Assembly (NCBI GenBank): GCA_032158295.1
Contig: CM063258.1
Span: 4,822,061-4,886,060, forward strand
Source: Pycnopodia helianthoides
Lineage: Eukaryota; Echinodermata; Asteroidea; Forcipulatida; Asteriidae
DNA length: 64,000 bases
Direction of reading: 5' to 3'
Positions 32,373-63,626 of the stretch are shown piece by piece. The stretch's first letter is position 1. Every line of letters starts with the position of its first letter. Position numbers and translations under genes: made by a program. The notes under the pieces were generated by a model. It was not told the DNA's origin and ran no database searches. It saw only the letters and a list, made by a program, of their open reading frames with translations.

Positions 32373-32673
<301 letters not shown>

Positions 32674-33590: not shown

Positions 33591-34229
33591 ATTTAAAATA
33601 CTTTCTAAATAAAAGTAATAAATCTTTGTAATAACAATAATAACATTAAAAATGATGTGCTTATATTTTGGAGAAACGCATCTCGGAGACCCCCAAAACC
33701 AATCTTCATTTCTTTTCTTTGATGGAGCTTGTTTTGATCAGTTCCCCTCCTTCTTAAAACTTAGAACATTTTGGGAAACGCATACACACTCTATATGAAT
33801 AGTGGGGTCCGGCGCCCATCGAGGGCTCGCATAGGACCCTGAGATGGTTTGAATAAAAAAAATGTAATCCTTGGTAAAGGTTCAGCTTTTCTTGGTTAGG
33901 CCTATCTTTTGCGGAAAAGTTTAATTCATGTTTTTTTTTTTTTCCAATCATTTTTAGTCTCTGACACTTCCTTACACGAATTTTACAGCATAATGACTAT
34001 TTTAAAGTTGTTGTTTTTGTTTTGTTTTTTAGCTTAGGCTACTTGTGAATAATTATTTAATCATTTGCTGAGCACAGGATCACTTCACTTTGTGTACTTA
34101 TTTCATATATTTGGCTTCTTTGTTTAGTGCTTGGCAACATTGGGTGGGGGTGACAGGACATCAGTATGCCCCATCTAGGTATGCCCCATGGCACACGAGT
34201 TTGGCTCCACCCCCCCCCCTCCATCACCG

Positions 34230-36620: not shown

Positions 36621-36622
36621 TT

Positions 36623-36773
36623 TTATTATAAGAATAAACTTTTCTGTGATTTCATATGGGGGGCAAGAGGGGGGGGGGCAGCAAGAGGGGGGCGCAGGCC
36701 CCTCCCCCTGCCACCCTGCCCCCCCCCTCTTGCCCCCCATATGAAATCACAGAAAAGTTTATTCTTATAATAA
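36623..36773. repeat. Near-perfect 150-bp palindrome
   Basis: The left arm (TTATTATAAGAATAAACTTT..., then ATATGGGGGGCAAGAGGGG) is mirrored by the right arm, with arms of about 60 bases and a short GC-rich centre. It would form a long hairpin in single strands or RNA. It sits right after a copy of the GACGACC repeat. Confidence 0.85.
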
Positions 36774-37371
36774 ATAAATAGTTTAAGGCTGCATTAATGC
36801 TGCCGTAAAAAGTAAAACTTGTATTCACATCAGTATGTCATGATGCAATTGGTGCTCGATATGGGGCAGAGGGAACCCCCCCTTCCTATTGTGTCTTCAT
36901 TGTGTGCTTGGAATCTCATGAATTCTTTTGAGGATTTAAGGGGGGGGGGTAGTTCTATACAAGAGGAAACTAGTGTGTATGGGAACATTGGGGGGGACCC
37001 CTCTACCCTATATCGGGCAGGCTATATCACGATGTGGCCTATAACGCAGTCATGACAAATGCATGGAAACGTGCGCACAAACGATCGTATTGGCGGTAAA
37101 TGTACGTTGTGGTTTGCGGTTACAGAGAGTGCAGGAAGTCACAAAGTTCAGTTTGATGTGGGGCTGAACGCTGACCAATATCTCTGTTAGCACAATGTGG
37201 TCAGAGAGATTTAAACAGCAAAATGGCCGGCGAAAAAAGTTAGCTCAGACCATTCTCCATATCAAAGCGCTCGTCTTTGCCTCGTGCTCCAACACCCAAG
37301 AGGCAGAGTCGGGAAAATACAGAAGATTATGATTCTGATGTTGGTAATCACTGTTGGTAATTTAATCCTTG

Positions 37372-38812
37372 CAAGGGCGTCGATTGCTACTGAAAAGTAG
37401 GGGGGACGGGCGAGCAAGTCATGAAAATTTTTTCGTTTTTCTTTTGTTTTAATTGATATTTTGTTTGTGTGTAGGGGAAAAGTGAATCATACTTGTAGCC
37501 TTGTGTAAACAGACCATTAAGATGAGACTAGTGTGCCCACAAACAAATATTTGGATGGTTTTGTATTTCAAGCATCATTAGAGTGTTTTTAGAGGACTAA
37601 AGCACACAAAATAGTAGTACCGGAGCTTACTCAAACTGTTCAAAAAGCTTTAGTTATAGTAATTTATAAAATTCTTCCCTTGTTAATGGAGAACCATGTG
37701 TGGAAACTAAAGCTTTAAAGAACGTATGAGGCGATATGTGTAGTTCTTAATAGGGAAGGGGGTTGTGGTTAAGTTAAAGGGAAAAACCAGAAGGGGAACA
37801 GATGTTGGTAGGGGAGGGGTCTGGAAAGGATGGTTTGTGTGAAGAGGAGACTGCCAAAATAAACTTGAGTGAAATCATGGAGGAATAGTGAAATGCACCG
37901 TGGAGCGGGAAATTCGGAACCAGATCCGGTGCTAGCAAAGATAGATTGGCAGCTAGAGGGAGTGAAGGGAAGACACATGTCGGTGTGGTCTCTGGTAGTA
38001 AATCATCCCCTGACAGTTTGGATGTTGCTTTTTGGTGGACAACAAGTGTCTCCGTTATCCAAGTACTCAAGGCAATGGTTAAAACAGAGCTAATTTTTGA
38101 TTTTTTTTATGTAACCACATGAAGGAAAGAGAGGGGTTGTTTTGGGTTTTTTTAAAGGGGGGTGGAAGGGGAAGGGGTTGTTTGAACTCACTAAAAAGAA
38201 CCTTTTTTCCTGTTGGGACGTAGCCACTGAAAATAACTTTATAGTATCCATTTTAATGTGCTTCGGGAGTCCGGCGTTTATCGTGTGTCTTCGAAAAAAC
38301 ACTGCTTCTTCGACAAATCTTGTCATGGCCGAAAATGCACTACATTGTGTGCATTGTGCGATTGTAACAAAATGTAACACATTTGCACGTGCGCGCACAC
38401 ACAGACTTTCTTTGTGGAGGGATCATGTACCGTACATTATAGCATACACAAATGACGCATAACTTGAATGCTAACAAGGTATTTAAGCGGAATTTTGGCT
38501 TTTATATATGTCTTGGACGAAACTTGTTGGTTATTGTCTGTATTATAGAAATGGAAAATGGGCCCAAAATACCATTCTGCGCGTGGTCCATCAGAGCCAA
38601 ATAAGAAAATAAAGAAAACATTTTAACGTTTAATGTTCGATAGTTTTATTTTAACAAAAATTGTAATGAAATATTGAATCAAGGAAATGGTGTATATTTT
38701 TATATTTTGTTGCATATTTCTGATGAACAGTCAATCAAAAAGTGGGGGGGGGGGTGACATCTGATATGCTGATATGCTGATATGCTGGTCCCCCCACCCA
38801 TCGACGCCCTTG
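37372..38812. mobile_element. Non-autonomous hAT-like element, second family
   Basis: Ends CAAGGGCGTCGAT and ATCGACGCCCTTG are flanked by a perfect 8-bp duplication AATCCTTG (37364-37371 and 38813-38820). Internal blocks (TGTGCCCACAAACAAATATT..., ATGAGGCGATATGTGTAGTTC) resemble parts of copy 2 above, so the two families are related. A (TGATATGC)3 run lies near the right end. No transposase is visible. Confidence 0.9.
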
Positions 38813-39907
38813 AATCCTTGTATACAGTCGAAAAGTTTTATCTTATAAAAATGACAAGTTCTCTAAGATTTGGTTGTTTTCGCAATCTTTTGTTACCTGC
38901 AAACTATGTAGACTCTAGAACTGCATTGGTGTGTATCAACTATCAATTAACATATTTAATGATAATCTTGCACTTCTTTACCCCCCCCCCCATTTTTGTT
39001 TTTTAATCTTTGCCCCCACTTTCCCCCCTCCCAAATGAAAATGTCTAGTTACGCCACTGCAAGGGTTGTGATGGTATTGGTGCAGGCGCGGATCCAGGGG
39101 CGTTGGGTCGCACGCCCCCTTTTCTTCATGCAAAAAAATAAATAAGTAAAAAATAAGAAAAGAAAGAAAAAATTAGGAAGAAAAACAAAACAAAAGAGAA
39201 ACATACAACAACCAGAAAGGAAAAAAAGTTCAAAGAAGGAGGGAAACACAATATTATTAGGGCATTACACGTCAGACTGCACATAGCCTAGCTGCTGTAA
39301 TATCTAGGAGTAGATACTCCACTGTGCAAGTTTGGGGCTACAAGTCAGACGACATCTATGGCTCGGGCTGTGATTTGTTTTTCTGCAGCATACATGTACT
39401 TCGTCAATACAGTCAACAGTTAAGAGATAGGCTGTTGTTCCCTATCCCTTAACTGTTGACTCCATAGCCGACGTGTGCTGCAGAAAATAAGGCGGGCTAA
39501 AAGGAAAAAAGGTTTCTTCAAGTTCTACATATTTTTGTCACTTTATTTCAGGTTTACGTTTTCGTAGTTTTTGCAAATAATATTGATGTAATTACGGAGT
39601 AAAATGTTTCTATCCGAGCAAGTTCATAGTGTGCCAATAATTTGTATACCCCTGCTTAAAAAGCTGTACACCTATATTCAATAATGGAATGGTCCATAAA
39701 GTTTTCCCAACGTAGCGCGCGGTTAATATCTAGGTCAACTCAAAAGTATTAATAATATGTACAATCATGTACATGTGATTTTAGCTGTCTTTTTTTCTGA
39801 CTGAACAAATTCGGGGTAACAAAGTCATATCCTGCCTTGTGGCCCTATTACTTGTGGCCCTTATTATTGCATCCCTGATTCACTAGCTGCAAACTCGAAA
39901 ATTATGT

Positions 39908-40302
39908 TTAAAGGAACATCACAGAATTGGTTTTTGCTAACAAAACACTGGTTGGCAGTGTAAGCACTGTATGTATTCCACCATATACATAAACTGACAA
40001 ACCTGTTGAAGTTTGAGATCGATCGGCCATCTGGGTCACGAGAAAATAGTGAAAAAACCGATTACACATTTGCATGAAATCATATAGATTCAACAAAATG
40101 AATAAAACGCTCACTGAGCGATAAACTCCAATCGGAAAATTAGTTTATTCATTTCTCATCAAATATGTCATTTCAGACAGAAATATTTCAAGGGATGTTT
40201 TCTACTATCATCATCATTAGACCGTGTAAGTTTTATGTAAATCTATGATCACAAAGTATTTTTTACAAGTTTTTTCTTACCAATTCTGTAATGTTCCTTT
40301 AA
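39908..40302. mobile_element. TTAA-flanked MITE family A, copy 2 (inverted)
   Basis: The same element in the opposite orientation, with intact TTAA and both terminal repeats (AAAGGAACATCACAGAATTGG and CCAATTCTGTAATGTTCCTT). The three copies in this window are highly similar, which suggests recent activity. Confidence 0.85.
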
Positions 40303-40609
40303 TGATGTTTATATGATGAACCTTTGCTAAAAAATAAATAACCTACAGTGGTCAAATATCGCCTGCATGCACAGAACATCTACGAATCCAACATTTTCCG
40401 GGACCCTTAAACTTTGCTTCACGCTACGCGCTCGCAGGTGTCCCAACTTTCCTTTCGCCGTGTTTATACATTTGCTGACATATGCAGCAAAATGCCCCCC
40501 CCCCCCCGTTTGGAAAATCCTTGATTCTGTGGGCCACCCCCCTCAAAAAGTGTGAAAATAACGGCCCTCTCTTCCCAACCCCACCACCCCCTGGTTTTGA
40601 TGCATATGG

Positions 40610-41215
40610 CCTTTAGATCTATTAGTACTAGAACATCTGAGCATCAGCCGCCATAGGACGACCGGCCAATAAAAACTCCGTTCTTAGAACGACCAATCAA
40701 GTGAAATTCAGTCTTAAGTCGACCAAGACCAATTTGAACATCCATGGCACACGAGTCCAGTATGATCAACCAAACTCCCCGCTGAGGAATATCATGGTTA
40801 TTTTCATATTAACCGCAGTTTAGGCCCCAGTCACGGGATTTATCAAAGTTCCCTTTTCTCTGAGGGTCAACACAGGAAAGATAATTCCCGAATATCTGAT
40901 AGTTGATTTAGCCGCCATAGGACGACCACCCAATAAAAAGCCGTTCTTAGAACGACCAATCAAGTGAAAGTCTGTCTTATGTCGACCAAGACCAATTTGA
41001 ACATCTATGGCACACGAGTCCAGTATCAACCAAACTCCCCGCTGAGGAATATCATGGTTATTTTTATATTAACCGCAATTTAGGCCCAGTCACGGGATTC
41101 ATCATAGGCCTTGGTCCCTTTTTCTCTGAGGGTCAACACAGGAAAGATAATTCCCGAATATCTAATAGTTGGTTTAGCCGCCATAGGACGAACGACCAAT
41201 CAATTTGGACATCCA
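40610..41215 (+). repeat. GCCGCCATAGGACGACC repeat cluster, second block
   Basis: Three units in tandem, with cores near 40647, 40911 and 41176 and a period of about 265 bp. It ends roughly 285 bp before the first exon of the chimeric gene, so any promoter lies close to it. Confidence 0.85.
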
Positions 41216-41938: not shown

Positions 41939-43587
41939 ATGCCCTTTCCCAGAAGAGTATCTCCAATTGCTGAGGCAGAACATTTCTGTCGATCAGGGTT
42001 GGATAAAGAAGGGTTTTGCCACAGATATATTGATGACTCTATAGGTAAGCTTAAGTGAATCACCACTTCAAAATAGATTATACTAGAAACAAAATCAATT
42101 ATATGCTTTTTAATACTGATGTAGGTTGTGCAGCTGACAGTGAGCTATACAAATTATATTTTTATGTGAAACCGCTATATAGATAATGTTTATTCTCAGT
42201 CATTTTCTGCAAATGACTGGGCAATTCAAACCCAGTCTAGTGAGTAGTGTTATTCTATTTTGCTCAAAATTGAAAGGGGCAAGCAAATGTTCTCTAGTGT
42301 TAGACAGTTAAAAAAAGACTGTTCAGTTAAACAAATTACTCTAATACTATAGCATTTAAGTTTTGCAGCAGTTTTTCACAACATGTATGGTCATCATTAA
42401 AATTCAAGGCAGACACTTGTGGGAATAGTGCGCCTTCATTTTTTGGCCTGATTTGTGAAGTTGCTTGTAGCAAGGTGAAAACAAGGTGAACAAATTACAC
42501 TGGTAGAAATTTCTAGGACTTTGTGTCTACTATTTCAAATTGAATGCCAATTTTGTGTGACTAAAATGGTGATTTTCTTTTCAGGGTATGGCCTTTTCAC
42601 AACAAAAAGGTTTGAACAAGGAAATTTTCTGTTAGAGTACAGAGGACAGGTCAGCAGGGCTATAAGCGAAGCTGATGAAGCTAGTAACAACTACGAGTTC
42701 ATCTATCTTCACAATGGTGTTCAGTACAGGTGAGTGCATTCATAACATTTTAGTTGCTTTAGAGACAAACCCTCAATCAAATGGTGATTTATGCATTCCC
42801 ATCTATATTTTTTTTGTCACTACTCAATTCTGTAAAAATTTTACATCATCAGCATGTATTTTCTGCACAGCACAATGCCCATGACTTGAAACAATAATTT
42901 ATTATTTGCCCAGTCTTCCATGTGAACTTGTTAACTTCTTGGGAACTCGTAGCCTCATTAAAGCACTAGGTCTTGAAATTTATGGTGGAACTTTTGATTA
43001 ACAGTTGAGATATGTAGAGCAGTATGACATAAACATGATAAAGTACTACCAAAATGATCCCATTTTGTTTAGTATTCCACCTTTGTTAGTCCCCCACAAC
43101 AGGTTGAAACAAAATAATGATATTTTAGGTGAAGCCTGTTGTTCAATTGATGAGTACTGGGACAGTGTAATTTTCAGTTTAGTAGGATCTTCTCAGTACC
43201 AGAGCTTTTATAACTTAACACTTCTGAATTGAAAAAAATAGTTAAAGCCAGAATGTCAGATTTATTATTAAGAATGATACACAAGTATCACTATTAATTG
43301 ATATTACAAAGTATACATGCAGTTCTTCTAAAATAAATGATGACTTTTCTAAAAGTGCAAAACGAATCTGACAGTAATCGTCTTTTTCCTCCAACAGGGT
43401 TGATGCATCAAATCCCGATTCATGCCAGGCCCGGTACATCAATGATGATAATAAACACCCTAACTGTAAAATGAAAAAAATTGTAATCAACAACACGCCT
43501 CATCTCTGCCTATTTGCAATTCAAGATATTGAGGCAAATCAAGAACTACGGTACGATTATGGACAAGATGACTTCCCATGGCGAAAG
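41939..43587 (+). CDS. SET domain exons (exons 1-3 of the chimera), KMT5A-like lysine methyltransferase
   Basis: Three exons (41939-42044, 42585-42729, 43398-43587) encode residues 1-147. The SET core starts at GYGLF (36-40), has EYRG after the first strands, and ends with the cofactor/substrate loop RYDYG (135-139) followed by PWRK. The order and spacing match KMT5A/SETD8, which mono-methylates histone H4 Lys20 using S-adenosylmethionine. The catalytic Tyr of YDYG is present. The usual Asn-His of the RLINHS motif is instead RYINDD (96-101), with PNC following; I recall ND in other KMT5A-like copies, so it may be normal for this subfamily, but it removes a residue used to bind the cofactor. 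The N-terminus before the SET core is only about 35 residues. Methyltransferase activity is plausible, not certain. Confidence 0.9.
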
Positions 43588-46500
43588 GTACTGAACCAAT
43601 TGTTTTTTTCTCTTTTGGGCAAACAAATCACACTAAAGAGAGTTATTTAAATTATCATACAATTTCAGAAAGTGTAACTCGCATGATGCCCCCAAAAATG
43701 AAAAACGTTGCATTAGTGTATGTAGTTGCCCATTCCTGGCCAATCAGATAAAAAATTAAATTCTTTATCATTTAATTTTTAAAAAAGTAGGTGGAATTTG
43801 GTTTTTCAATTTTCTGAAAATATTTTAAATACAATGTAACTTGCGTGACAGAAAAATGTGCCTCGCGTGACGACCTTTAGTTTTAATCTTTTTGAAAAAA
43901 GAGCAAGCACCAAAGCAGCCTAAACAAAGCTTCAAAGATGCTGTTAAAAAACAAAAGATGAATTTTACTTTTAAAAAGCAAGAAATGTGTTGTTACGTTA
44001 AAGTATACAATTCAGCATTGCTTTCTATGCATGAGCCACACACTGGTTTGCAGCCACAAATAAGGCTTCAGTATAAATTGGCAGAATTCAACTAATGGTT
44101 CCCCTAAAAATTCATTGCAACTTTTAAAACTCTAAAAGCCCCAAACCCATATTTTTCATGTTGATTGAGTAGTTTACACTTATTTTAAAGCAAACTGATG
44201 ACTCATGTCTGTGTGTTGCATATTAAACTAAAGCTTAGTCGGTGAAAGACCACAGGTTTTTGAAGCCCATGTTAGTCTGAGGATGGATCCTAAACACAAG
44301 GGATTTAGGATTAGACTTACAATTTTAAACACTGTTTATCAATATTATTTTTTTACGTGTTGTGTTTTTAACTGTGTAAAGTGCTTATACTTTGTTACAC
44401 TTTTTGAATGTTTTAGAAGTCTACCAACCTCCCAGCTCCTGTGTTGGCTTCTACAAACCTCACTGCAGCATCATGCTCCGATTGTTGTCCAACAAAAGCA
44501 TGTCTACTTAATACACTCCTGCCCTCAGAAAAAGTGGTAAGCTAAAAACAAAATTGTACAGTAGAACGTCGCTATACAACACTGAAATAACTAACATTCG
44601 GCTATATCAAACAAAGCCTTTGGCTCTTGATTTTTGTACACAAAGTGAACCAAACATCTGGCCGATGCTGATGCGAAATTACCGGATTTATCAATGTTTA
44701 ATTAACAATTAAAATAGCATTTAATGTTAAACACAATGCTCACTGCTCAAAATGACAGACAGGCAGTATAGTTCCCAATTGATAGAATAGAAAATCAACT
44801 GTTATCTAAGGTTTTCTTTGAAAATGTACATTATGGAAGGACGTCCAATGTTTCTACATGAGAGCATGATGTCCCATTCAAAAGTTACAAGTCGATCTCA
44901 GTATCACGCACAGGGGACCAGCCTCACAATCGGTTAGGGATTCTTTTTTTGTTTTCATTTTAAACTTAAGCTTCAAAGGCATGGTACAATTTTGGTAGTT
45001 AGTCCATAAATTAGATACGATAAAAATTTACTTGAAAATGATCACTGGAGACCTGTTGATAGTATAAAATACATGTATTTTAAGAAATGACTCCCTTTGA
45101 AGTAACATAGTTTAGCAGAAAGAGATTCTTTTTTTCCCAAAATGTCAATCTGAGAAAGGCTTCTCATGCATCTGAAAGCGCACAATTCTATGCAAAAGTT
45201 GCTTTTGTTTTCTTTCTTTATTTGTTCACTTTTAATTTCTGATTGAGCCCAAATTTGTACATGTTTGCTAATTTATGCATGTATGTTGGGATGCACCAAG
45301 TGCCTGTAATACATTGAAAATCATTTTTCAAATAACAAAAGTAAAAACCATTTTACATGTAAATTTCTGCGAACATATGCAAAGTTTAAACAAGATTACA
45401 GCAAAACAAATTTGATAAATTTGTGTACAAAAAGTTGTCGCAAACTGGCCCACAAAGTGTCCTTCCATACCTTCACTACACATTTCCGGTCTATCTGTAA
45501 AAGGGTCTATGTTGAATCTATGTATGAGCTGACATACTGGAAGGTCCACCAATAATGGGTTGTTGATTTTGTTATTTGTGCAGAGGAAAGTTAAACAGCT
45601 GGCATTTTCAACCAATAGTAGGTGCACAAAAGAATTTAACTCATCCACCACCCATGTGATCACTGACGATGCAGGTAACATAACCAAAGCGTACATGGCT
45701 TTGAATATCTTGAATATTATTGACATATCAAAGTGATTGTTATGCAATATAAGCCATTTAGATAAACAACAGCCACATGTCGTTACAAGCAGTTGTCAAG
45801 TTATCCTAATGTTTTACAAACTTGTAGAATTTTTCATATAAACAAATAATTTCTTCACAATTTTTTGAAACAGTCACAATTCTGATTCATGATTTTCATG
45901 AATTTTAGTAGGCCTGTTCAATATGCATACAATTTGTATTTTTAAATCATAGATGGTGAAAACGTGGCCAGAAGGAGTTACAAGCTCTTCCAAGGACTGG
46001 CTGCCAAAGTGTGGGTGGTGAGCTACAAATGTAAGTGACTTTAACACCAATAAATGTGACGCTGTTATTATTGTCTTAAAGCTTGTGAGGTTTATAAGTA
46101 AAGATTTGAATGCTCAGTATAGTGCATCAATTTGCCATGTTACCAATTCTATATTTTTTGGCAACATGTGGTTGTACTTACTTGCACGTATGATGCTTGT
46201 GTTTACATCTCCTCATGAGAAGAACATGTACAATTTATTGGATAGTCAGTTTGTTGTAGTTATATTTACATACACAGCACCGTACTTTGCGCAACAATGT
46301 CACATAAATGCATTGCTTTCGCTGGTGGTGAATTATGCAATAGGAGGCGCTGAATATTCATTAGTAAGATAGCGTTGGACCAACGGCCGATTTAGGGTCT
46401 GTCCGTAGAATGTGGTCACGTGGACCAGGGAGTCCTTGTTGGTAACTACAAGTTATAGGAAATCTCCTTATGGCTCGATATGCTCATTGATTGATTGGAT

Positions 46501-49500
46501 ATTGGTGTCTCACGAGAGGGCGTCATTATCCAAAAAGTTACAGTAAGGTTTTTAACACTATTGACATAAATTATTCAGTGTGCATAATAATAACTCGACA
46601 ACTGTCAATCACTCCTCCATCATTTCCTTAATTATTTGTGTATTGTTTGCAGGGGTAACAGCTTCGTTGAAAACGGGGGTCTTACTCCCAGAAAAGGACT
46701 TTGAAATCCAGAGAATTTGGACCAACGAGCTGAGTGAGGCAGATTTACCTTCACGGTGTGTACGGCTTGCCAGTACAAGCAAACTCTTTGCCAAGTACAT
46801 GTTTTATGTTATTGGTCAATCTGTAGATATCAATAAAGGTATGTATGTTTCAAGTTGATTAAAATTATGATGCATAATATGATCATGATAATATATACAC
46901 CTGATGAGAAGATCCTTTTCATTAGATTGGAGGATTGGAGGTGGCACGGATTAGTCACACCATTTTATGGAGTGAAATAGAAAGTTGCACCCTCTTAATT
47001 TAAGTAATCCTATTATTGCTGCTTCCAGTTAAGGTTGTATTGAAAACCTGGATGTGACAGCAAAATTAAGGTTGAGGGTCTTTATGTGACATAGAGGTCA
47101 ACAGGACCAGGTTAATACTTGGCTGCAGATTGGGCCACAGCACCTTTTAACCATTACATGGTGCTATAAAAAGGAACAGGTGTCATACTTAGCTATGCAT
47201 ACCTTAAAGGAAAACACTGAGCACTTTGAGACACACGTCGGGTGTGATAAAGCTCTATATATAAGAATCGGTGTCATGCTTTACCCAGCACCCCTATCTG
47301 ACTACAGAGGGCACTATTTCAGTTCTTTTCTCGTGCGTTTATCTTTTCTGTATGTTCGGCAGTTATTGTGTGACCATTAGTTTTGCTGTTGTGTTCCGAG
47401 TGAAGGTTGCACATACGGAATAAAAGCTTTTTCCTTTACAGTTACAATTATTAATATTATTATTATAATATAAAAACACAGATTTTATATAGTGCTTTAT
47501 CACACCCGAAGGGCGTCTCAAAGCGCTCATTATTTTGCTTCAAGGTATGTGGAGCTTTGATTGGACCCAGGTCCTTTACATAGCACCTTTTAATGGTTTA
47601 CAAGGTGCTTGTGGCATAGTCTGCAGCCAACCAGACCAGAAAACACCGGTACCAACAGCTTTACATCTTATCCGAAGGACAAAGCAATCATGGTTAAGTG
47701 TCTTGCCTCATGACACAAGTGTCACAAACAGGACTCGAACCCACACTCTGCTAATAAGAATTAACTGAGCTTGAGTCTGGTGCTCTAACCGCTCAGCCAC
47801 AACACCCCCTCCAAAAAAAAAAAAAACAAACAAACAAACACCCCAACATCCCCCCAGTCTTTAAATAATTGATAAATGTTAATTTAATTGAAAAAAAGTG
47901 TGCTAAAAATTGCAAAAATATCTACTGAACTTTCAAATTTAAGCCCATTTTCCTTTAATTTGGTAGGGAAAAAAATGAGCAGTGGGAAGTGTTATTTTGG
48001 AGAATGCTAACCAAAAAGCAACTTTGGGTCAAAATTGTCACTTTTCCATTTCCCAAACCCCTCCCCCAGTTGTTTGGGCAAGTTCAGAGATTGCCTGAAA
48101 TGCTGTTAAAATTGTTTCTCTGGGCAGATCAAGTACTTCATCTGCTGAGTTTGTGTGGTGGATCTACTTGGAAATGGACGCCCGAACGTAGTTGCAGGAC
48201 AGATACAAATGAATATGCTGTTGTATTCATTGGGTCAGATTGGAGAAATCATCCATTTTTCAGGATATTTAATGGTATGTGTATTCAATTATTTGTACAT
48301 GTGTGTATGGTTCAAAACTAGAGAGATAAAAATGAATTAATTTGTTTCAATGTGCAGAGGTGATGCTAAAAATGAAAGGAATGCAGTGTAAAATTACTAC
48401 ATGAATGCTAAAAAGTTGATAGTAAATACAGTAGTTGTGTATATTGTACATAAGTACATTAATGGAAAAACGGGTAAGCATTTTATCAACACTGTTTTTC
48501 AATAACTTGCAGGAAATTTTACCAAATCGGGGTTTTCTTGTCCTGAAAACACAAGCCCGAGCACTAATCGGTTTATGAATGGATTATTCAATGACTGAAC
48601 TCTTCCTTGGCATGCGTCACATGTGATGTAGGCCTACAAGAGGTCAAATAGTAGCAAGTTACAATGTCAGGGAACATTTTTTACACAGGCTTCAGGAAAT
48701 AGCAGGTTGGAATATTTTTTCAGTTACACTTGTTTCAACGGGAGGGAAAGGTCAAGTTGGGTCACATTCTGAAATAAGATCTTTTGAAATGTTAATCTTT
48801 GAATGTAGTTTCACACCCAATTGAGGTCATCTGCATTCAAATTTGTACATTTATTCGAGTGCTGGAGTCTCATGAGCTTTTTCTATTATGGCAATTTTGT
48901 TGTTAATTAGGTTCAGATAGAAGGAGAAAGCAAGGTAACAAAAAAAGAGTCCAGAACAATAGGTAACAATAGGTGTCAAAATTTTTTGTTTATTTATTTT
49001 TTTTTTTTCAGTCTTGTTTGATGTATTTATTTAGTGCTCAATAAATGAGCTGGGGCAGGTTGTGTACAATAAATTTTAACCCATTAACAATATAAATGAA
49101 TAATGACTTGTGTTTCCTGTTGTTATAGCTTCACCACACAATCATGTGCCAATCATCACATTAGACTGGGTGTTTGACTGTATCATGTTGTATGCCATCC
49201 AGCCCATAATAAACTACGCTGTACATATCTCAGATGTTAATGCAGGTAGGCGTAACTGAAGATAGTCACTTACAGTTTGTCATGCCTTTCTTAATTTTTT
49301 GAATAAGCTTTTTGAAGAAATTTAAACTTATGAATTAGCTTTTTGAAGAAATTATAATTTTCGCAGTTTAAGGAAGTAGTTTTAAATCAAAATTCTGGAT
49401 GGTTTTGCATTATACATATCTTTTTTCCTTTTTTTTATGCAAATAGACTGGATATAAGTGCTCTTTGAAAAAAATGTAAATCTCTCAGTTATACTCCACA

Positions 49501-51369
49501 TCTTCAAATAACCACTTACAAGAGTCCAAATTCCCAAACTTTGGAAATTGGGATGGGGAATGGCCCATAGGATCATTTTCCAAAATGTGCTTATTATTTG
49601 ACTCGTTCATAAAAAGTAAACAAGCAAAAATGGGAGTATCTTGTCTCAAAATAACATGTACTCCTTACCATATCATGGGTCTGCCTTGACAAACAAAAAA
49701 CGATAAGCATACATTATTTCAAACTGTCAAACTTTCAAACTGTCGTACAGACGTTTCAGAATCGTCCCCCACCCCATGTTTCAACACACTTTTATGCCAC
49801 CGACTACTTGAAAAAATGTGTTTTCATGTTATATCAAAATAAAATATCAAAGCAAATGGACAATTCATGTGGGCACCACTGGGTCTCAATGACAACAAGT
49901 TATGCTGTATGAGTCACAGGTTTTTACATTATATAGTACCTGCGAGCGGTTCATTGTTCCCTAAATTCACGAAACTTTGCTTTAAAGGAAAAATGCAACG
50001 GAGAGCAAATTTAATTTGATTGTGACCTGACATCTTTTGATTGTGACCTGATCTAATTTCTTAGATCGAATATTGGGGACTTCCGGATCCTTATGCAGGT
50101 TAATTGTATTATTTGTTTTCAGTTGACGGGGATGACTCTGATGAAGGAACTCAAGGAGGTGACTCCCATGATGGAGGTAAAGGAGGTGACTCCCATGATG
50201 GAGTTAAAGGAGGTGACTCTGATGATGGAGTTGAAGGAGGTGACTCTCATGAAGGAGGTAAAGGAGGTGACTTCCATGATGGAGTTGAAGGAGGTGACTC
50301 TCATGATGGAGGTAAAGGAGGTGACTTCCATGATGGAGGTAAAGGAGGTGACTCTCATGATGGAGGTAAAGGAGGTGACTCCCATGATGGAGTTGAAGGA
50401 GGCGACTCTCATGATGGAGGTAAAGGAGGTGACTTCCATGATGGAGGTAAAGGAGGTGACTCTGATGATGGAGGTATAGGAGATGACTCTCATGATGGAG
50501 GTATAGAAGGTGACTCCCATGATGGAGTTGAAGGAGGTGACTCCCATGATGGAGGTAAAGGAGGTGACTCTGATGATGGAGGTAAAGGAGGTGATTCCCA
50601 TGATGGAGTTCAAGGAGGTGACTCCTCCCATGATGGAGGTAAAGGAGGTGACTCTCATGATGGAGTTCAGGGAGGTGACTCTGATGATGGAGGTAAAGGA
50701 GGTGACTCTGATGATGGAGTTCAAGGAGGTGACTCTGATGATGGAGTTCAAGGAGGTGACTCTGATGATGGAGTTCAAGGAGGTGACTCTGATGATGGAG
50801 TTCAAGGAGGTGACTCTGATGATGGAGTTCAAGGAGGTGACTCTGATGATTCAATTAGTGATGGAGGTGACTCTGATTATTTATTAAGTGATGGGGATGT
50901 CTCTGATGATGGAGTTGAAGGAAGTGACTCCCATGATGGGGGAGATGAAGTTGATTCTCATGATGAAGATACAGGAGGTGAGTCTAGTCATTGTTCATTA
51001 GATGATGATAGAACAGTTTGTCAACTTCCAATACCTGTGGAGGTAGTATGGACTGTTCTCCCTCCAACTATGTTTTATTTAGATATTAGTGAATCCCACC
51101 TAACCTTGTTTTGCCCAACCAGAATAAACAACCAGCAAGAGATCTGATATCATTTATTATATATGTGGTTTAATTGTACCCTTTTCAATAGACTCAAAGG
51201 CTATGTATATGAAGGATATTAAAACTTACTTTTTGAAATATTTTTTTTCATTTGTAAAGGAAATAAACATAGTGCTGAACCACAGGTAATACATATATTT
51301 TACTGTTTCTTAACATTAATCATGACAACTCTTGCCAAACCCAAGCACTTACATGTTAAAAGACAACAC

Positions 51370-51404
<35 letters not shown>

Positions 51405-51637
51405 GGGGGGGGGGCGTCCATTGAGCACGGTTAAAAATTAAGTTAATCTTATAACCAATACAACCTTTAGATTGTTTTCCTCTTTTTATCTGTTTAAAAT
51501 TTTGTGCCTAAATTAACACAGTTACTGTTCTTTTGTTTTAATTTTAACAAACAACATTAATTATAGTTTTGTTTATTTTTGTGTTTGCATTGAAACATGT
51601 TTATTGTTTTGTGTTTTTGTGTTTTTGTGTTTTTGTG

Positions 51638-51673
<36 letters not shown>

Positions 51674-54600
51674 CCCCTGGAAAGGAGTTTCCACTTAACT
51701 CTTGAAAAATCATGACATTTAAAGTTGTTATGTTCAAGAAGGAAATGCCTACTCATTGAGCTTTTTTATTTTTATTTTTATTTTTAAGGAGTCTTGAAAA
51801 ATTTACCTTATAAGGAAAATAGCCTCAAATTTATGTGCAACCCCGCAAGATACATATTTTGCTTTAGGAGTTTCCTAGTCTGCATTAACTGTTCATCATG
51901 ATGCATGCTCAACGTTTAAGTCAATGCGACAATGTGATGTCTTGGTCATGTTTGTCGTGGTCAGGGCTATTGTTTGTGGGTCAAACTAAAAGGGAATGGC
52001 ACCTCTTTCATTCTCTCATTAGTGTAGGAGACTTAATATTATTTTTATCTGTTGTTTTCATTTAAGGTTTTTGCTTGCATTTATTGCTTTTAATCGCTTT
52101 TTGCTAGTTTACCTTTATAGTGCAATCTTTACAACCTAGGCTGTTACTATGAACAAAAGAAAAAGGACTGGTTTGTTCGATATGTCTGTGGCTCTATCAA
52201 CGATTACTTTCAACAATGAGTTGTACATTTAGACCTGCGTCTGTCTCCCTTTATACATGTACGTGTAGGAACATTATAGTTCCCTATTATTGAATGTAAA
52301 ACATGTAAAGTGGTTGAATAATGAAAAAGCAAAGTTGTGCTCTTTAATTTACTGCATACATGTGAGGTTTGCAGGGTCCATTAACAGTGTTGCTGACTCG
52401 AATCGGTGACTTGGATGCGATTCTGACTTGTGTTACAATTGTTGAGAATTTGACTTTGCTTGGCTTTGCCTTGACTTAAAAAAACATTACTTGCAGCTTG
52501 ATTTTATTTGAACAAAAATGACAGTAGACTTGACTTTGGGAAAAATTACTTGGTTACAACAGTTTATATTGGTATTTAGGGAATGAGGGTGGGTGCTTTT
52601 TGGTGATTATCAAAAAAGGAAAACAAAATCTGTATTTGAATCATATTGGTGTGAATTTGGAATTTGCCTTTCTGTACGGAAGAAAAGAAATTAGAGAGAT
52701 GCACAGGTTGTCCTCTAGTAATAAAATTATGTTTTCTTGATTTCAAAATTAGGATGAGACACGGAATGAACCACTTAGAAGACCAAACCGACCTTGTATC
52801 TACTGCGGCCTAATGCAGACACAACTTAGCCGTCATCTAAAGAGAAAGCACAGAAAAGAAGAGGAGGTCAAAGCCGCACTCCAGCTACCTCGTACAGAAA
52901 GAATTGAAGCAATGAGTCAGATAAGGAAAGATGCAATCTTTCAAGAAAATGTTAAGAGAATAAGGACTGACTGTCGGCAGCCATTGTTGCGAGAGCGTCA
53001 ACAAGGAGATGCAGAAGTTGTCATGTGTGGACAATGCCATGGATTTTATAGCTGTTCCCGCATATGGCGCCACAAACAAGTTTGCCATAGGGCATGTAGT
53101 AATAAAGTGTCGTCAGTGCCTGTTACATCATTGCTTCAAACTGAAGTTGGAGGGCGATTTAATTCCGAGGTTCTTCTTCGTTTTCGTAATGACGACATTG
53201 GATCAATCTGCAGGAGTGATCCGATGATAGTCCATGTGGGAAAAAAGTTATGGGCAAAATCTGTGCAAAGAGCAAAAAGTATCATTATGAATGATATGAG
53301 GAAGTTGGGTAACTTACTTCACAAGATGAGGTGCATTTCAGAGAACACGACCCTCACAGGGGAGGATATTTTAAAGAGACAAAATTTCAGTTTATTGGAG
53401 AATGCTCTTGACAGGCTTACAGACAAATCTTGTGATGAGATTAAGGCAGGACTCCGATTAAGTTTGGGTTACCTTATTAAAAAAGGTGCAAAAGTCATGA
53501 AGGCAGTATACATCATGAATGACAGATTGGTCGATAGCCTGGAAATTGACAGATTTTTGTCAGTTTTGGACCTCAACTGGGACTTCCTGTTCAGTCGAAG
53601 CCTGCATGTGGTGGAAGCAAAACGACAAGCAGTTCTCAGAAAGCCTCAGTCCATGCCACTGGAAGAAGACATCTCAAGGCTTCGAAGTTACATAGTTAAA
53701 TCAATGGAAGAAATTGTTAATGGTGATGAAGCATTGTTTAGTGGGAAATTTTTCAACAAGTTGAGATCCTTGGTCGTCAGTAGACTAACATTCTTCAACG
53801 CTAGACGGGTGGAGAACCATGCAGAATGACGCTCAGTGAGTGGGAAGATGCAAAAAATCAGGCATGGGTTGATCCCCAGCAAATAGAAGCAGTAAAAGAT
53901 CCATTGGAGAAAGCTCTTATGAACTCCTACAAGCTAGCTTATCAACGGGGAAAGGGTTCTAGGAAACTAGTCCCTGTCTTGATCCCTAATGACACGGTTG
54001 CTCCTATTGAGATGCTAGTAAAGATGAGAAATGAGGTTGGTGTGTCTACAGATAACGTGTACCTTTTTCCATTTACACAGCGATCAGCTGGTCATGTGAA
54101 TGGCTGGGCTGAGATGAAGAAAGTAACAGATCTAATGGGGGAACAACTCAAAAAACCATCTCTGCTGACAGCCACTAAGTTTCGTCACAGGGCATCAACT
54201 TTGTATGCCCTACTAGATGTTCCGGAGAAAGACCGCACCATTTTTTACAAACATATGGGTCACTCAGCCGAAATAAATGCCAACATCTATCAGTGCCCTC
54301 TGGCGGTAAGGGAAATTACTTCAGTTGGACGTTATCTGCAGGGCATAGATGGCAAGTCCCAAACTGACAACTCAGGTGGGTATTATCTTTCTTTTTCTCT
54401 TTTTGTTCACAACAGTAGTTGTAGCAATAAGTACATGGTTTTTAATGTTCAAGAACAAGTCGTCCTTGAAGCTTTGAAAAACTGCTGTTTGTGTCAACAA
54501 AGATGATAATATGTTTTTATTAGAGAATTTCAAAGGTTTTTTTTTCTTCTCTTCCCTCAGCTGTGACGCAAAAAGAGAAGAGAAAAGTATCTGGACGACA

Positions 54601-57600
54601 TATCAGTCAACAAAGACAAGACCATCTGTCATCAACCCAAGAGACTGATTGTGACTCGTCACCAGGTAGTTATTTCATCTTGAATAAAGTGTTTACAAAA
54701 CTGATTTTTAATTTTTTGTTTTAATGCTGATAGTTAATTTGTCTCAAAAGAAAAACAACAAATAAGCCAAGCTAAATAATTATATTAAACACTCTTTTCC
54801 CTCAGCTGTGACCCCCAGAAAGAAGAGAAGAGTGATTGGTGGAAGAAAGGACCATCCGCAATCACTAACCCATGAAGCTGATTACAATTCATCACCAGGT
54901 AGTTATATTATTTTAACATACTTCACAAAACTTAAAATTGTTTTGTAATGTCCTGTTTTTAATTGTCCCCATTACAAAAAAAATACCAACCTAAATAATT
55001 ATATTAAACACTCTTTTCCTTCAGCTGTGACCCCTAGAAAGAAGAGAAGAGTGATTGATGGAAGAAAGGACCATCTGCAATCACTAACCCATGAAGCTGA
55101 TTACAATTCATCACCAGGTAGTTATTTTTTAATTTTTTAATTATACTTCACGAAACTTAAAATTGTTTTGTAATGTCTTGTTTTGATTTGCTTCAATTAC
55201 TAAAAAAGTACCAACCTAAATAATTATATTAAACACTCTTTTCCTTCAGCTGTGACCCCCAGAAAGAAGAGAAGAGTGATTGGTGGAAGAAAGGACCATC
55301 CACAATCACTAACCCATGAAGCTGATAACAATTCATCACCAGGTAGTTATATTATTTTAACATACTTCACAAAACTTAAAATTGTTTTGTAATGTCCTGT
55401 TTTTAATTGTCCCCATTACTAAAAAAATACCAACCTAAATAATTATATTAAACACTCTTTTCCCTCAGCTGTGACCCCTAGAAAGAAGAGAAGAGTGATT
55501 GGAGGAAGAAAGGACCATCCGCAATCACTAACCCATGAAGCTGATTACAATTCATCACCAGGTAGTTATATTATTTTAACATACTTTACAAACTTAAAAT
55601 TGTTTTGTAAAGTCTTGTTTTTCTTTGCTTCAATCACCAAACAAATACCAATCTAAATAATTATATTAAACACTCTTTTTCTTCAGCTGTGACCCCCAGA
55701 AAGAAGAGAAGAGTGATTGGTGGAAGAAAGGACCATCCACAATCACTAACCCATGAAGCTGATTACAATTCATCACCAGGTAGTTATATTTCTTCAACGT
55801 ACTTTACAAAACTGAAAATTGTTTTGTAAAGTCTTGTTTTTCTTTGCTTCAATTACCAAAAAAATACCAATCTAAATAATTATATTAAACACTCTTTTTC
55901 TTCAGCTGTGACCCCCAGAAAGAAGAGAAGAGTGATTGGTGGAAGAAAGGACCATCCGCAATCACTAACCCATGAAGCTGATTACAATTCATCACCAGGT
56001 AGTTATATTGTTTTAAAATACTTTACAAAACTTAAAAGTGTTTTGTATCGTCCTGTTTGTATTTGCCCCAATCACTAAAAAAAATACCAACCTAAATAAT
56101 TATATTAAACACTCTTTTCCCTCAGCTGTGACCCCTAGAAAGAAGAGAAGAGTGATTGATGGAAGAAAGGACCATCCACAATCACTAACCCATGAAGCTG
56201 ATTACAATTCATCACCAGGTAGTTATATTTCTTCAACGTACTTTACAAAACTGAAAATTGTTTTATATACGTTTTCTGTCACTGGTTTATTTTCCCCAAT
56301 TCCGGAAAAAACAAGTCGACTGGTTAATAATTGTATTGAACAATCTTCTCTTTCAGCTGTGACGCACCAAAAGAAAAGAAGAGTTGTTCCTCAACATATT
56401 AGTCAAGATAGACGGAAGGCGGAGTCCAGCTCATCTTCAAGTAAATATGTAGTTTTCAAGAAAATACCTTTTTTTTCGCAGCTTTTTTGCATAGTCCCTT
56501 AGAATCAATTGCAATAAACTTGCAATGATGAAAGGCATTAGTGTAATAGTAGGAATATTACAATGACGTCATCCCCTGTAATGTGATGTCACATCTTACA
56601 GATATGTGTTTTTAAATCTTTGAAAATCCGTATGAAATCAACCACAAGAGACAGTTTCTGTATACAAATGAATACAATTGAGTTCTAGTTAATTTATTTC
56701 TACCTTAGCTGATACGACCCCCCACAAAACCAGGTGTGGAATCCCTCTGACACTACAAAGAAGAACAAAGCAACACTCCAAAAGATGTCATATTGACTCA
56801 GGTATTCAATTCATTTCAAAGTATTAATTTGCTAATATGACAATTACATCTCTTTTTGAAGGTTGTCCCAGTTTGTTATGTACTCGTTTGCACATTTTTC
56901 AGTGTTTGACCTCGTCAATGCTGATCTAAGCAAGGGTTCTAAAATCATCTGAACGTTTTTTTAATAAAAAAGATGAAACTCACCAGAAAAGGACACGAGG
57001 TAGAATTTAATGTTATGAGTGACACCCACAAAAACAAACTGCAACTATTGTTTGTTGGGGTGTTTGTATTCTTGTTTCCTTCTTTTTTTCTGAGAACTGC
57101 ATATAAGAGTCAATGTATTCTTGATAGCAGTTAATCACAGTTGGATTTAATTAATCAATTGTTCTTACACACTTAAGTTTAGCGCACAAATTCTGGGCAG
57201 TGTTATCCATTTTGGATTTTAAGAAAATGAATACAAAATCAAATACTATTTACTTGGGAATACAAAATGCAATTTTTATTTTTTTTTATTTTTTTATTTT
57301 ACAATTATCCGAAATTAGCAATAATAATATAACAATTTGGGAGGCTAATCATCCTTACTGGCAGCTTAGAAGCTGAATTGCGAAGGATGCGGCTACAGTG
57401 TGTTCAAGTCATGCAAGGGCGCACTAGGCAGCCAGCCACGTTGACCCATAATTGAACACGGTGCAAAGCCTGAGATCGAAAGTGTTTGATTTTTTCGGGG
57501 GGGGGGGGGGGGCGGAGGAAAACCTTCGTAACATAGGAGAGAACCAGTCCACGTCTCTATTCACATAAGCCGGGAATGGAACCAGGGCCATATTGGTGAG

Positions 57601-58676
57601 AGACGAGCGCTTTAGCACAAGCCACCCATTCCACCCATACATAGGATTTTGTCATGAATACTAATTTAACTGTAAGCTTAATTTAGTGTTTTTAATTTGT
57701 TGTACTAATCACACAGGGAGAGGTTATACAAAATGGTCAGCAAAGGATACAGCATATGTTAGAGAGGAATTCAAGACCTACATAATGGACAAGCAGTTTT
57801 TAGGCTCAAAAGGATCTCTCCCAGGTAAGATTAAAAAATTTAAGTCAAACAACCAGTGCTAAGATTGATCTTCAGTGCAAATCAATCTTAATTGCTAAGC
57901 AAAGTATGATGTCGCAATAGAAATCACTGTGGTAACACTGACTACTTATCTTAAGATCTTGGGCAAAACTAATTTTAAAAAGTGTAAAACATTTAATGTA
58001 AAAGAAAGACTTAGTTTAAGGAAAATAACAAAATAAATACACGGTTTTTAATCTAGTATTTTATATTTTGGAAGCAGTCCTATATTGATGTGGTCTGCCA
58101 ACATTTTAAAACGTGCAAACGAATATATACTTGTTACACAGAATAAATCCCACCTGCTTCCCAAGCCTTTATCAGAAAGAATAAAACTTCTTTTTGGCAA
58201 CTAAATAGATGACACAACACATGATATCCCATCAGAACGTTGAAGAAGTATGAATAATTGTATTGCTGTAGGACACCAGTGACCTGAACCCATCCACTAA
58301 AAACACTAGAATATGAGGTCAGTATACACACGTACACTAAAATACTCGGCCACAACATTCCGCAATTGGGTTCACAAGTCAGCTGGCACTGCTCTTTTTA
58401 ATGAGTTTCAAAGAAGAGTGTTTTTTTTACAGATACACGTGTCTGCTGGATCAGAAAGATTCCTTTAATCCCTGAAAGGCTTGATTTTTTGTTTTTCAAT
58501 CTACAGGTAAAATTCAGGTGGAAAATTTCATGACAAAGTTTCCCCACATCTTGAAAGATGTGGGATCAAGGCAGAAGGTCCTCCTTATTAAAACTAAGGT
58601 GTTCAATGAGCGAGGGAAGGAGCGACGAATCCACAAGATGAAACAGGAAAGGAGGATATTTGTAATTGCACACTAA
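41939..58676 (+). CDS. Chimeric SET / tandem-BRCT / zinc-finger / tyrosine-recombinase gene (24 coding exons)
   Basis: Hand-built exons: 41939-42044, 42585-42729, 43398-43587, 44417-44536, 45584-45674, 45953-46030, 46653-46838, 48128-48274, 49129-49245, 50123-50977, 51260-51285, 52753-54375, 54561-54665, seven 93-nt exons between 54806 and 56218, 56357-56440, 56709-56801, 57717-57824, 58507-58676 (TAA). Every intron is GT-AG and the phases agree at every junction. If one missing base in the recombinase exon is counted, the total is 4,896 nt, divisible by three (about 1,631 aa). Domain order is SET, two BRCTs, acidic repeat, two C2H2-like fingers, tyrosine recombinase, basic NLS-like repeats, possible SANT-like tail. 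The start ATG at 41939 is in the first spliced exon, just upstream of the SET core. I recall predicted fish and invertebrate proteins pairing a KMT5A-like SET with a similar finger-recombinase part; the BRCA1-like BRCT pair is unexpected. Likely nuclear. The single transcript is inferred from splice phase, not shown. Confidence 0.75.
44417..49245 (+). CDS. Tandem BRCT exons (exons 4-9 of the chimera), BRCA1-like
   Basis: Six exons (44417-44536, 45584-45674, 45953-46030, 46653-46838, 48128-48274, 49129-49245) encode residues about 148-393. BRCT1 runs from VLASTNLT through STTHVIT to the block KVWVVSYKWVTASLK and then LLPEKDFEI, which lines up nearly without gaps with the first BRCT and linker of BRCA1. 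BRCT2 runs from YVIGQ through LLSLCGG to VPIITLDWVFDCIMLY. In BRCA1 a Ser in the first strand and an Arg and Lys three apart bind phosphoserine; the matching residues Ser159, Arg225 and Lys228 are present, so phosphopeptide binding is predicted. No RING domain is seen, so this is not a BRCA1 orthologue. Phases run 0, 0 to 1, then 1-1 throughout, joining SET upstream and the acidic exon downstream in frame. Confidence 0.85.
47450..47815 (-). mobile_element. tRNA-derived SINE in a chimera intron
   Basis: On the minus strand the element begins GGTGTTGTGGCTGAGCGGTT, an intact A box, with B box GGGTTCGAGTCC (plus 47731-47742). It then runs into a body that includes the AAGCGCTTTGAGACG-type motif shared with 47216-47270. 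The tail is an AT-rich run near 47440-47470. The tRNA fold is recognisable, but the continuation past it marks a SINE. It lies in the intron between BRCT exons 7 and 8. Confidence 0.8.
50123..50977 (+). CDS. Acidic nonapeptide-repeat exon (exon 10 of the chimera)
   Basis: One 855-nt exon, phase 1 to 1, encodes residues 394-679. It begins VDGDDSDEG and is mostly a 27-nt minisatellite giving about 25 copies of a nonapeptide of the form GGDS(H/D)DG(G/V)(K/E/Q). It is rich in Asp, Ser and Gly, with many potential acidic-kinase sites, and looks like a flexible linker between the BRCT pair and the zinc fingers. The last five VQ-type copies (about 50718-50850) are nearly identical, suggesting recent expansion. 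The donor GTGAGT follows at 50978. If it is not used, the frame stays open to a stop at 51145, adding a non-repetitive tail that ends RINNQQEI. The repeat also keeps other frames and the opposite strand open, and I treat those as shadows. Confidence 0.85.
51260..51285 (+). CDS. 26-nt microexon (exon 11 of the chimera)
   Basis: A pyrimidine-rich tract ending AAAG precedes this segment and GTAATA follows it. Its 26 nt take phase 1 to phase 0, exactly the change needed between the acidic exon and the recombinase exon, and encode GNKHSAEPQ. Without it the two flanking exons do not join in frame (a TGA appears at once). It contains AATAAA at 51262-51267, so the same bases could act as a polyadenylation signal if the upstream donor is skipped. 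Confidence 0.65.
51371..51412. repeat. Poly-A and poly-G run in a chimera intron
   Basis: About 30 A followed by TT and 10 G. A matching T-run lies at 51640-51669. Both are in the intron before the recombinase exon and are likely places for assembly error. Confidence 0.9.
52753..54375 (+). CDS. Zinc-finger and tyrosine-recombinase exon (exon 12 of the chimera), with a 1-nt frameshift
   Basis: One long exon of about 541 codons. It starts DETRNEPL, then has two C2H2-like fingers: C702-x2-C705 with H715/H720, and C779-x2-C782 with H794/H799. A helical region follows, resembling the DNA-binding part of tyrosine recombinases. Catalytic features are: box I NARR near residue 1039, a Lys in GKGSRKLVPV (about 1088-1092), box II TKFRHRAST with R1165 and H1166, GH at 1190-1191, and a Tyr in NIYQ at 1200 as candidate nucleophile. 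The canonical first His of box II is Thr. Just after box I, at the G-run 53807-53809, the frame shifts: the upstream frame ends at TGA 53827-53829 and the downstream frame reads on from about 53811. Such enzymes cut and rejoin DNA through a phosphotyrosine link; Crypton transposons use this fold. Family membership is inferred. Confidence 0.85.
54561..56440 (+). CDS. Tandemly duplicated basic exons with NLS-like motifs (chimera exons 13-21)
   Basis: Exon 54561-54665 is followed by seven near-identical 93-nt exons at 54806, 55025, 55250, 55469, 55687, 55906 and 56126, and then a diverged member at 56357-56440. All are phase 1-1, so any number can be included or skipped without changing frame. 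The duplicated unit is exon plus about 126 nt of intron, with a period of 218-225 bp. Each copy encodes AVTPRKKRRVIGGRKDH and a tail ending NSSPG. PRKKRRV closely resembles the classical SV40-type nuclear localisation signal. The first and last members keep only KEKRKV and QKKRRVV. The function is inferred to be nuclear import, DNA or RNA contact, or simply a basic linker. The near-identity of exons and introns points to recent unequal exchange. Confidence 0.85.
56709..58676 (+). CDS. C-terminal exons of the chimera (possible SANT/Myb-like tail)
   Basis: Exons 56709-56801, 57717-57824 and 58507-58676 continue in phase 1. The first is basic and Cys-containing (residues about 1509-1540). The last two encode YTKWSAKDTAYVREEFKTY and a Gly-rich turn (GSKGSLPG), then a helical basic end finishing RRIFVIAH and TAA at 58674-58676. 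A Trp followed by an acidic helix is typical of SANT/Myb-like folds, and I recall similar tails on related finger-recombinase proteins, but the match is weak. Intron 56802-57716 carries an interspersed repeat around 57290-57650. No polyadenylation signal is obvious before an inverted-repeat element begins 26 bases after the stop. Confidence 0.7.
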
Positions 58677-61489: not shown

Positions 61490-62410
61490 AGCCTATTGGG
61501 TTCCAAGAAGGGTTATTATAGGAATAGTATAGGGCGGTCGTCTATGTCGGCTAATACTATAGCAGAATCAGTTAATTCCAGATTTGATGGAGATTGCAAT
61601 AAAGGGTTCTTTAATGCCAAAATATATAAACAAAATAAAATAAAACATAAATAAAAAAATAAAAAATTGGTTGGCGCCCACTCGTGTGCCATAGATGTTC
61701 AAATTGGTCTTGGTCGACTTAAGACTATAATTTCACTTGATTGGTCGTTCTAAGAACGGCTTTTTATTGGGTGGTCGTCCTATGGCGGCTAAATCAACTA
61801 TCAGATATTCGGGAATTATATTTCCTGTGCTGACCCTCAGAGAAAAAGGGACTATGATAAATCCCGTGACTGGGGCCTAAACTGCGGTTAATATGAAAAT
61901 AACCATGATATTCCTCAGCGGGGAGTTTGGTTGATCATACTGGACTCGTGTGCCATGGATGTTCAAATTGGTCACGGTCGACTTAAGACTGAATTTAACT
62001 TGATTGATCGTTCTAAGGACGGAGTTTTTATTGGCTGGTCGTCCTATGGCGGCTGAGATGTTCAGATGTTTGGGTACGCATAAAAACTGGGGTTGGGGGT
62101 TGGGGTGGGGGTGCGGAAGGGAGGGGCGTTATACTCATACTTTTTCATTTGGGTGGCCCACACAATCACACCCCCCCCCCCCAAACACACACAAACCAAC
62201 CACCAACCACCCCCACCATCCTTGAAGACATTTTGTAGGGGTCACTTTGTCCCACCGTGAGCATGCACGGTTGTTCAAATTGGTCGTTAACTTATGGGTT
62301 CCAAGACGGGTTCTTGGATTGGCCGGTTGTCCTATGGCGGCTAATACTATAGCAGATTCATCCAGGAATCATCAGTTAATTCCAGATTTGATACTCGGAG
62401 GTTGTAATAA
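61490..62410 (-). repeat. GCCGCCATAGGACGACC repeat cluster, third block (inverted)
   Basis: The same family on the opposite strand, with GGTCGTCCTATGGCGGCT cores near 61770, 62037 and 62325. With the block at 40.6 kb it brackets the chimeric gene in inverted orientation. Confidence 0.85.
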
Positions 62411-63597: not shown

Positions 63598-63626
63598 ATT
63601 GGTCGTCGTATTAGTGGTTAAACAAA

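Follow-up and report, generated by a model that had tools for sequence, protein, structure and literature searches.

The window, a stretch of 64,000 nucleotides from the sea star Pycnopodia helianthoides (contig C16, G000:C16:4822061-4886060), contains a gene at positions 41939-58676 that with good probability encodes the recombinase of a large DNA transposon. The predicted product is one protein composed of a SET domain, a BRCT pair, an acidic spacer, two zinc fingers, a tyrosine recombinase (YR), repeats resembling a nuclear localisation signal (NLS) and a C-terminal tail. The element around this gene is best read as a real and unusual YR DNA transposon, unlike Cryptons and Starships. A first-pass annotation, made from the letters of the window, had left two options: a transposon equipped with acquired domains for chromatin and for damage reading, or the domestication of such an element as a host gene. 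The first was supported by intron-containing copies that share its ends, by inverted arms and polar repeats, and by SET+YR relatives in several phyla.

Ends, copies and proposed target of the element

The interval 41939-58676, delimited in the first-pass annotation, stood as the gene, and the mobile unit was larger. By copy comparison, the whole element spanned about 31 kb between (TA)n arrays (32673-63622, + strand), its outer ends being uncertain by a few bases. A left inverted arm of 17 bp (CCACTAATACGACGACC; 32682-32698, + strand) was present at five of five left ends examined, the window included. Its exact inverse formed the right arm (63601-63617, - strand) in the window and in the copies on contigs C15 and C3; none was found at the C21 and C20 copies. 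The perfect arms began about 9 nt inside the element junction.

Between the arms we recognized polar repeats. On the left side, repeats of the AGCCGCCATAGGACGACC type (34406-40927, + strand) gave nine ‘+’ sites counting the arm, and on the right side there were two sites plus the arm (61773-62047, - strand). The core of the left-side repeats, ATANGACGACC, is also present in the arm. It had 12 sites in the window versus 0.04 expected, all within the element and all facing inward, and the same 9+3 pattern was found at the C15 and C3 copies. The short repeat core GACGACC was absent from eight of eight loci examined in other families, in sequences that may exclude the element ends. The gene was central in the element, starting about 9 kb inside.

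The search for dispersed copies, proposed in the first-pass annotation, was run on the 479 Mb assembly and recovered element copies on C15, C3, C21 and C20. The C15 copy matched window 32562-63658 with 99.1% identity over 31172 columns, TA arrays and introns included. The C3 copy had both ends, and two stretches at 98.8% and 98.3% identity to the window. In C21, window 32576-53483 was covered at 99.3%, after which identity dropped to 72–76%; to the right of this point a tblastn search did not recover the C-terminus of the YR, the NLS or the tail. This right part may be a chimera or an old remnant, and we count it as unexplained. The C20 copy covered window 32583-37443 at 99.0% and 52286-53124 at 99.6%, with an internal deletion, and its right end was not found. 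SET exon 3 occurred at 97–98% identity in nine places, the window included, several of which also had the BRCT exons. On contig C15, the region at about 8.3-12.9 Mb held 23 YR match rows, out of 25 on the whole contig and 58 in total.

All five left ends adjoined TA-rich sequence. By eye, the left flanks of C20 and the window had in common a short unit beside the TA array, in inverted orientation. This suggests that (TA)n is the insertion target rather than part of the element.

Gene model and domains of the predicted protein

The gene had 25 exons, all on the + strand, correcting the 24 counted in the first-pass annotation; the agreement of phases reported there was borne out. Every exon was preceded by AG and followed by GT, except at the first start and the last end, and the phases were consistent throughout. 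The start of exon 1 was placed at the ATG of that exon. The C15 copy had the same 25 exons and an open protein of 1664 amino acids. The domain order given in the first-pass annotation held from the SET domain to the NLS-like exons; the SANT-like tail had no Pfam support.

The SET domain was spread over exons 1 (41939-42044), 2 (42585-42729) and 3 (43398-43587), the last with the end of the domain including its YDYG motif. The spliced three-exon protein matched SET in Pfam at 3.5e-16 and had KMT5A as its best PDB match (4e-14), in agreement with the SET methyltransferase domain first predicted. The two Tyr of YDYG were kept in 38 and 39 of 39 rows, and the Asn of the NHS motif in 37.

Exon 4 (43904-44002), from the gene model only, encoded a basic linker, and exon 5 (44417-44536) a linker plus, by eye, a possible first part of BRCT1. 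BRCT1 and the start of BRCT2 lay on exons 6–8 (45584-45674, 45953-46030, 46653-46838; model and PDB match), the remainder of BRCT2 on exons 9–10 (48128-48274, 49129-49245; model, Pfam and PDB match). The pair matched BRCT (5.1e-13) and BRCT_2 (5.5e-11) in Pfam. In the PDB, BRCA1 came first at 1.1e-19, ahead of BARD1 at 1.5e-06, so that the earlier label of a BRCA1-like pair was kept.

The closest PDB match and shared splice sites both assigned the pair to the BRCA1 type. A BRCA1-like locus on C21 (9617375, 9615357) had no SET or YR match nearby among the matches listed and may be the host BRCA1. One of its exons was 78 nt long, started after AG with AT (an Asp split G|AT) and ended T| before the GG of a Trp; the next exon began with GG and ended AAA G|. 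Window exons 7 (78 nt) and 8 had equal splice positions and phases, and the BRCT exons of C116, C273 and C290 had the same borders where read. Since the element keeps the BRCA1-like splice positions, its BRCT pair was probably captured as intron-containing DNA. Further BRCA1-like BRCT exons were seen on C290, C253, C109, C34 and C38.

Exon 11 (50123-50977) encoded acidic GGDSHDG-type repeats. It was followed by a 26-nt microexon (exon 12, 51260-51285), the weakest exon of the model. Exon 13 (52753-54375; model and profile comparison) carried the two zinc fingers and the YR, with a broken frame in the window: it measured 1623 nt here versus 1624 nt in the open C15 copy, which is the 1-nt defect the first-pass annotation had noticed. 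In the C3 copy the YR region was not open under the same exon model. Between the window and C15, 66 of 11712 intron positions and 27 of 4922 exon positions of the gene differed, in a count that took nine exon ends one nucleotide too long. The next nine exons (14–22, 54561-56440) were related to each other and shared a basic motif of NLS type, PRKKRRV in seven and a variant of it in the first and last. The C3 copy was 222 bp longer in this region, about one repeat unit. Exons 23–25 (56709-56801, 57717-57824, 58507-58676), from the gene model, formed the C-terminal tail, and tails resembling it by eye were found in the database proteins P0063, P0065, P0072 and P0080.

The YR protein of the C15 copy had no Pfam match of its own. 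The family YR profile (79 rows, 70 used by the program) matched a profile of XerC, XerD, FimB and FimE from E. coli K-12 at E 9e-06 and 83% probability, and a longer part of it did so at E 2.5e-05 and 75%. Six unrelated E. coli proteins, each compared alone as a control, gave probabilities of 0.03–0.67%. The catalytic R, K, R, H and Y were kept in 78, 79, 78, 78 and 77 of the 79 rows, corroborating, together with the profile match, the recombinase core of the first-pass annotation. Among 30 YR relatives, PF00589 was matched in three at E 0.01 (best 2.2e-05; the P0050 match was under the Pfam cut-off), the PHROG integrase phrog_1 in two and phrog_216 in one. NCBIfam gave no match for the YR protein, for P0059 or for L039, a locus of the C10 family, and Rfam gave 0 matches. 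Both predicted fingers had retained their ligands, with C, C, H, H of finger 1 kept in 76–79 of 79 rows and C, C, H, C of finger 2 invariant in 16 of 16. The YR was under purifying selection, with a nonsynonymous proportion (pN) of 0.28 versus a synonymous proportion (pS) of 0.81–0.88 in three of three pairs, pS being saturated.

Relatives and linkage of the domains

Database searches gave 62 + 20 relatives, the 20 being scored among the 7996 candidates with most shared words, and then nine more proteins (P0059 again, P0083 as a new one with BRCT+YR, and seven of BRCA1 type). After setting the BRCA1-type proteins aside, local profiles found YR in all 83 relatives, SET in 37 and BRCT in three. 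In all 37, SET was N-terminal to the YR. The named relatives came from echinoderms, cnidarians, molluscs, a tunicate, fishes, beetles and a priapulid. By percent identity, the closest to the C10 family protein was a Patiria protein (65% over 33% of the query). P0067, P0068 and P0070 are YR relatives on contigs of 28–54 kb. Five relatives (P0074, P0013, P0082, P0011 and P0081) were predicted with a protein kinase, Ulp1 peptidase, PF10996 (presumably Beta-Casp) or WW domain, which may be more captured modules, or gene-model chimeras.

The first-pass annotation would have been contradicted by homologues that always lack one half of the protein. L039 had the C-half of SET, two fingers and the YR in one uninterrupted frame, and 1060-amino-acid frames at C10, C18 and C11 were reported with the same length for the SET and the YR match. 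The crinoid proteins P0059 and P0083 (Anneissia) joined a BRCT pair and a YR in one gene model, the pair of P0059 matching BRCA1 at 6.5e-42. In the brittle star Amphiura, P0080, labelled low quality, had one BRCT and a YR. The combination of BRCT and recombinase is thus not unique to the window gene. Upstream of other YRs there were SET exons at C15:9.69 Mb (three) and at C604, and BRCT exons at C116 (tblastn, E 5e-05 to 0.01). C273 had SET and BRCT exons on one strand, and YR was not among its matches. We found no paper on SET+BRCT+YR or BRCT+YR transposons in the open-licence literature, where absence weighs little, and the passages seen of PMC6431247, PMC3537659 and PMC13228809 contained no such element.

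The YR tree comprised 79 rows, eight of 87 having been dropped as too short or weak. It was a quick maximum-likelihood tree with midpoint root and SH-like approximate likelihood ratio test support only, in which the labels BRCT for C116 and SET for C15:9.69 Mb were set by hand. The tree had two sides at support 100. Because SET was present on both, it is probably an ancestral part of the recombinase family. The least number of changes was 12 for SET and 4 for BRCT, counts that are inflated by domains missing in partial models. A single clade of BRCT carriers was rejected (p 0.00016); the BRCT may have been taken more than once, or exchanged, or often lost.

Alternative explanations, known systems and proposed mechanism

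In another explanation, a DDE transposase of the Tc1/mariner type would act in trans on the element, and the YR gene would be cargo. A precedent is the composite MarCry-1_FO, in which a Crypton YR is combined with 16-bp terminal inverted repeats (TIRs) and TA duplications (PMC3212892). The inverted arms and TA flanks present in the window also fit a DDE element, which counts against our explanation. We nevertheless hold a DDE engine to be unlikely. No open frame in the gene flanks exceeded 139 amino acids except one through the TA array, and no DDE match was obtained in the part of the frames that was scanned, namely nine flank frames and seven frames between the exons or beside the gene. One intron frame matched DUF2985 at 0.022, under the cut-off, and was taken as chance. 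Arms that start about 9 nt inside the junction, as the 17-bp arms do, are unusual for a DDE end, and purifying selection on the YR argues against a mere passenger.

Other explanations keep the recombinase as the engine and divide the gene, or deny the movement. SET-BRCT and finger-YR might be two neighbouring genes of one element rather than one protein, to which the long intron ahead of the YR exon (51286-52752) and the relatives without SET would be well suited. The uninterrupted frame of L039, the three gene models with BRCT+YR, two of crinoids and one of a brittle star, and the agreement of phases across all 25 exons make this quite improbable. A domesticated host gene would account for chromatin-like domains kept in many animals, but SET exon 3 in nine places, the transposon ends and the broken YR frame of the window copy leave it very little credit, and a single tamed host gene was rejected on the dispersed copies and element ends. 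We attach a similarly slight chance to segmental duplications or assembly duplicates: the matches end at the same arms on different contigs, and past the TA arrays no match longer than 300 bp goes on colinearly into the flanking sequence, although the 98–99% identity over up to 31 kb including introns, and the missing right ends of C21 and C20, would be expected from them. A viral origin was also rejected, as the 25 pattern matches from one IMG/VR scan with query A1 included no relative by tblastn.

Several further observations weigh against a single-protein recombinase of a transposon. The SET+BRCT+YR triple was directly seen only in the window’s own subfamily, whose copies are 98–99% alike and hence give no independent test of the gene model. 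The single transcript from SET to tail is a prediction, and the junction between SET-BRCT and YR (exons 11–13, with the 26-nt microexon) is drawn by the gene model alone in this family. C116 had BRCT and YR, with no SET found in the 16.4 kb read upstream, and C15:9.69 Mb and C604 had SET and YR, BRCT being absent from the 10 kb that were read. Among the relatives, 80 of 83 were without BRCT and 46 of 83 without SET, some being partial models. The His of the NHS motif in SET was Asp in 36 of 39 rows, and the HxxR-box His of the YR was Thr in 74 of 79, so that activity cannot be assumed for either. The SET may have an altered methyltransferase specificity or serve as a binding module; the YR is classed as a divergent tyrosine recombinase on the strength of its profile match and of the five other residues, which are retained. 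Finally, movement was deduced from copy comparison within one genome.

Among known elements, Cryptons likewise have a YR as the only recognisable enzyme of movement, and include animal hosts. As in Cryptons, no reverse transcriptase was found: the frames given to Pfam, a part of all frames, had no such match, and there was no long flank frame. Cryptons have short direct repeats instead of TIRs (PMC3212892), whereas the window element has 17-bp TIRs, about 31 kb, about 25 exons, SET and BRCT. Neither the YR protein nor the 30 relatives matched DUF3504 in Pfam, and a Crypton was rejected on this result and the TIRs. Starships of fungi are also large and YR-encoding, sometimes with TIRs, and their captain is in 5' position and has DUF3435 (PMC12134995). 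In contrast, the gene of the window element is central, its host is an animal, and no separate cargo gene was recognised in the frames scanned. With no DUF3435 match in Pfam for the YR protein or the 30 relatives, a Starship was rejected on this and on gene position. DIRS/Ngaro retrotransposons, defined by reverse transcriptase and RNase H, were rejected, as no reverse transcriptase match was obtained in the frames scanned. The BRCT pair resembles BRCA1 in its best PDB match and splice positions, and differs in that no RING was found in the window gene model. TEC elements of ciliates have TIRs and TA sites. Compared by description only, they are likewise DNA elements with a YR, known only from ciliates (PMC4157794).

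Outside described transposons, there was a likeness to expansions of KMT5A-like genes, which number 65 (Hydractinia), 24 (Hydra) and 61 (sea urchin; PMC10368294). In Hydractinia and sea urchin SET is mostly N-terminal, and the longer genes are C-terminally similar between the two (E < 3e-43; PMC10368294). That paper reads them as host enzymes, and ‘recombinase’ is absent from its main text. Proteins from all three animals (P0074, P0079 and P0008) had a KMT5A-type SET together with the YR residues R, K, R, H and Y. Some of the published KMT5A expansions are probably members of this recombinase group.

For a recombinase-driven element, the fingers and the YR would most likely attach to the terminal arms and to the repeats that point inward. 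The YR would join both element ends into a circle and insert this circle into a TA repeat. At the circle junction, a TA-rich spacer would be flanked by the two 17-bp arms, an arrangement roughly like that of a YR site. A typical YR site has two inverted repeats of 11–13 bp around 6–8 bp (PMC3212892). Here the arms are 17 bp and a spacer of at least about 20 bp is expected at the junction, longer than usual; the fit is therefore loose, a further point against the proposal. SET and BRCT would be captured host modules acting on or reading chromatin at the donor or target site, SET by methylating a histone or another lysine substrate, and the BRCT pair by docking on phosphoserine proteins at replication or damage sites. 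Their purpose may be steering insertion or surviving repair.

A wider proposal, as apt to fail as to hold, is that large YR transposons of animals form an ancient superfamily that has no name yet. KMT5A-type SET would be ancestral in it, and the BRCA1 BRCT pair with its introns would have been taken more than once from echinoderm hosts, which would tie transposition to chromatin at damage or replication sites. These recombinases would then account for most of the ‘expanded H4K20 methyltransferases’ in sea urchin and cnidarians, a number of which are expressed in embryos.

Independently of this wider proposal, scattered ‘uncharacterized’ or ‘KMT5A-like’ animal genes become a recognisable mobile-element group, offering a checkable alternative to the published reading of embryonic H4K20 methyltransferase expansions. 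The window gene is an example of a transposon gene that probably took up a BRCA1 damage reader, introns included. It becomes testable whether the recombinase of a transposon relies on methyltransferase and phosphoserine-reading domains in choosing its sites or in surviving there.

Outside the element, the window had an exon-like frame with the look of a THAP domain by eye (25644-26018, - strand) and a tRNA-Ser (AGA) predicted by ARAGORN (20540-20612, - strand).

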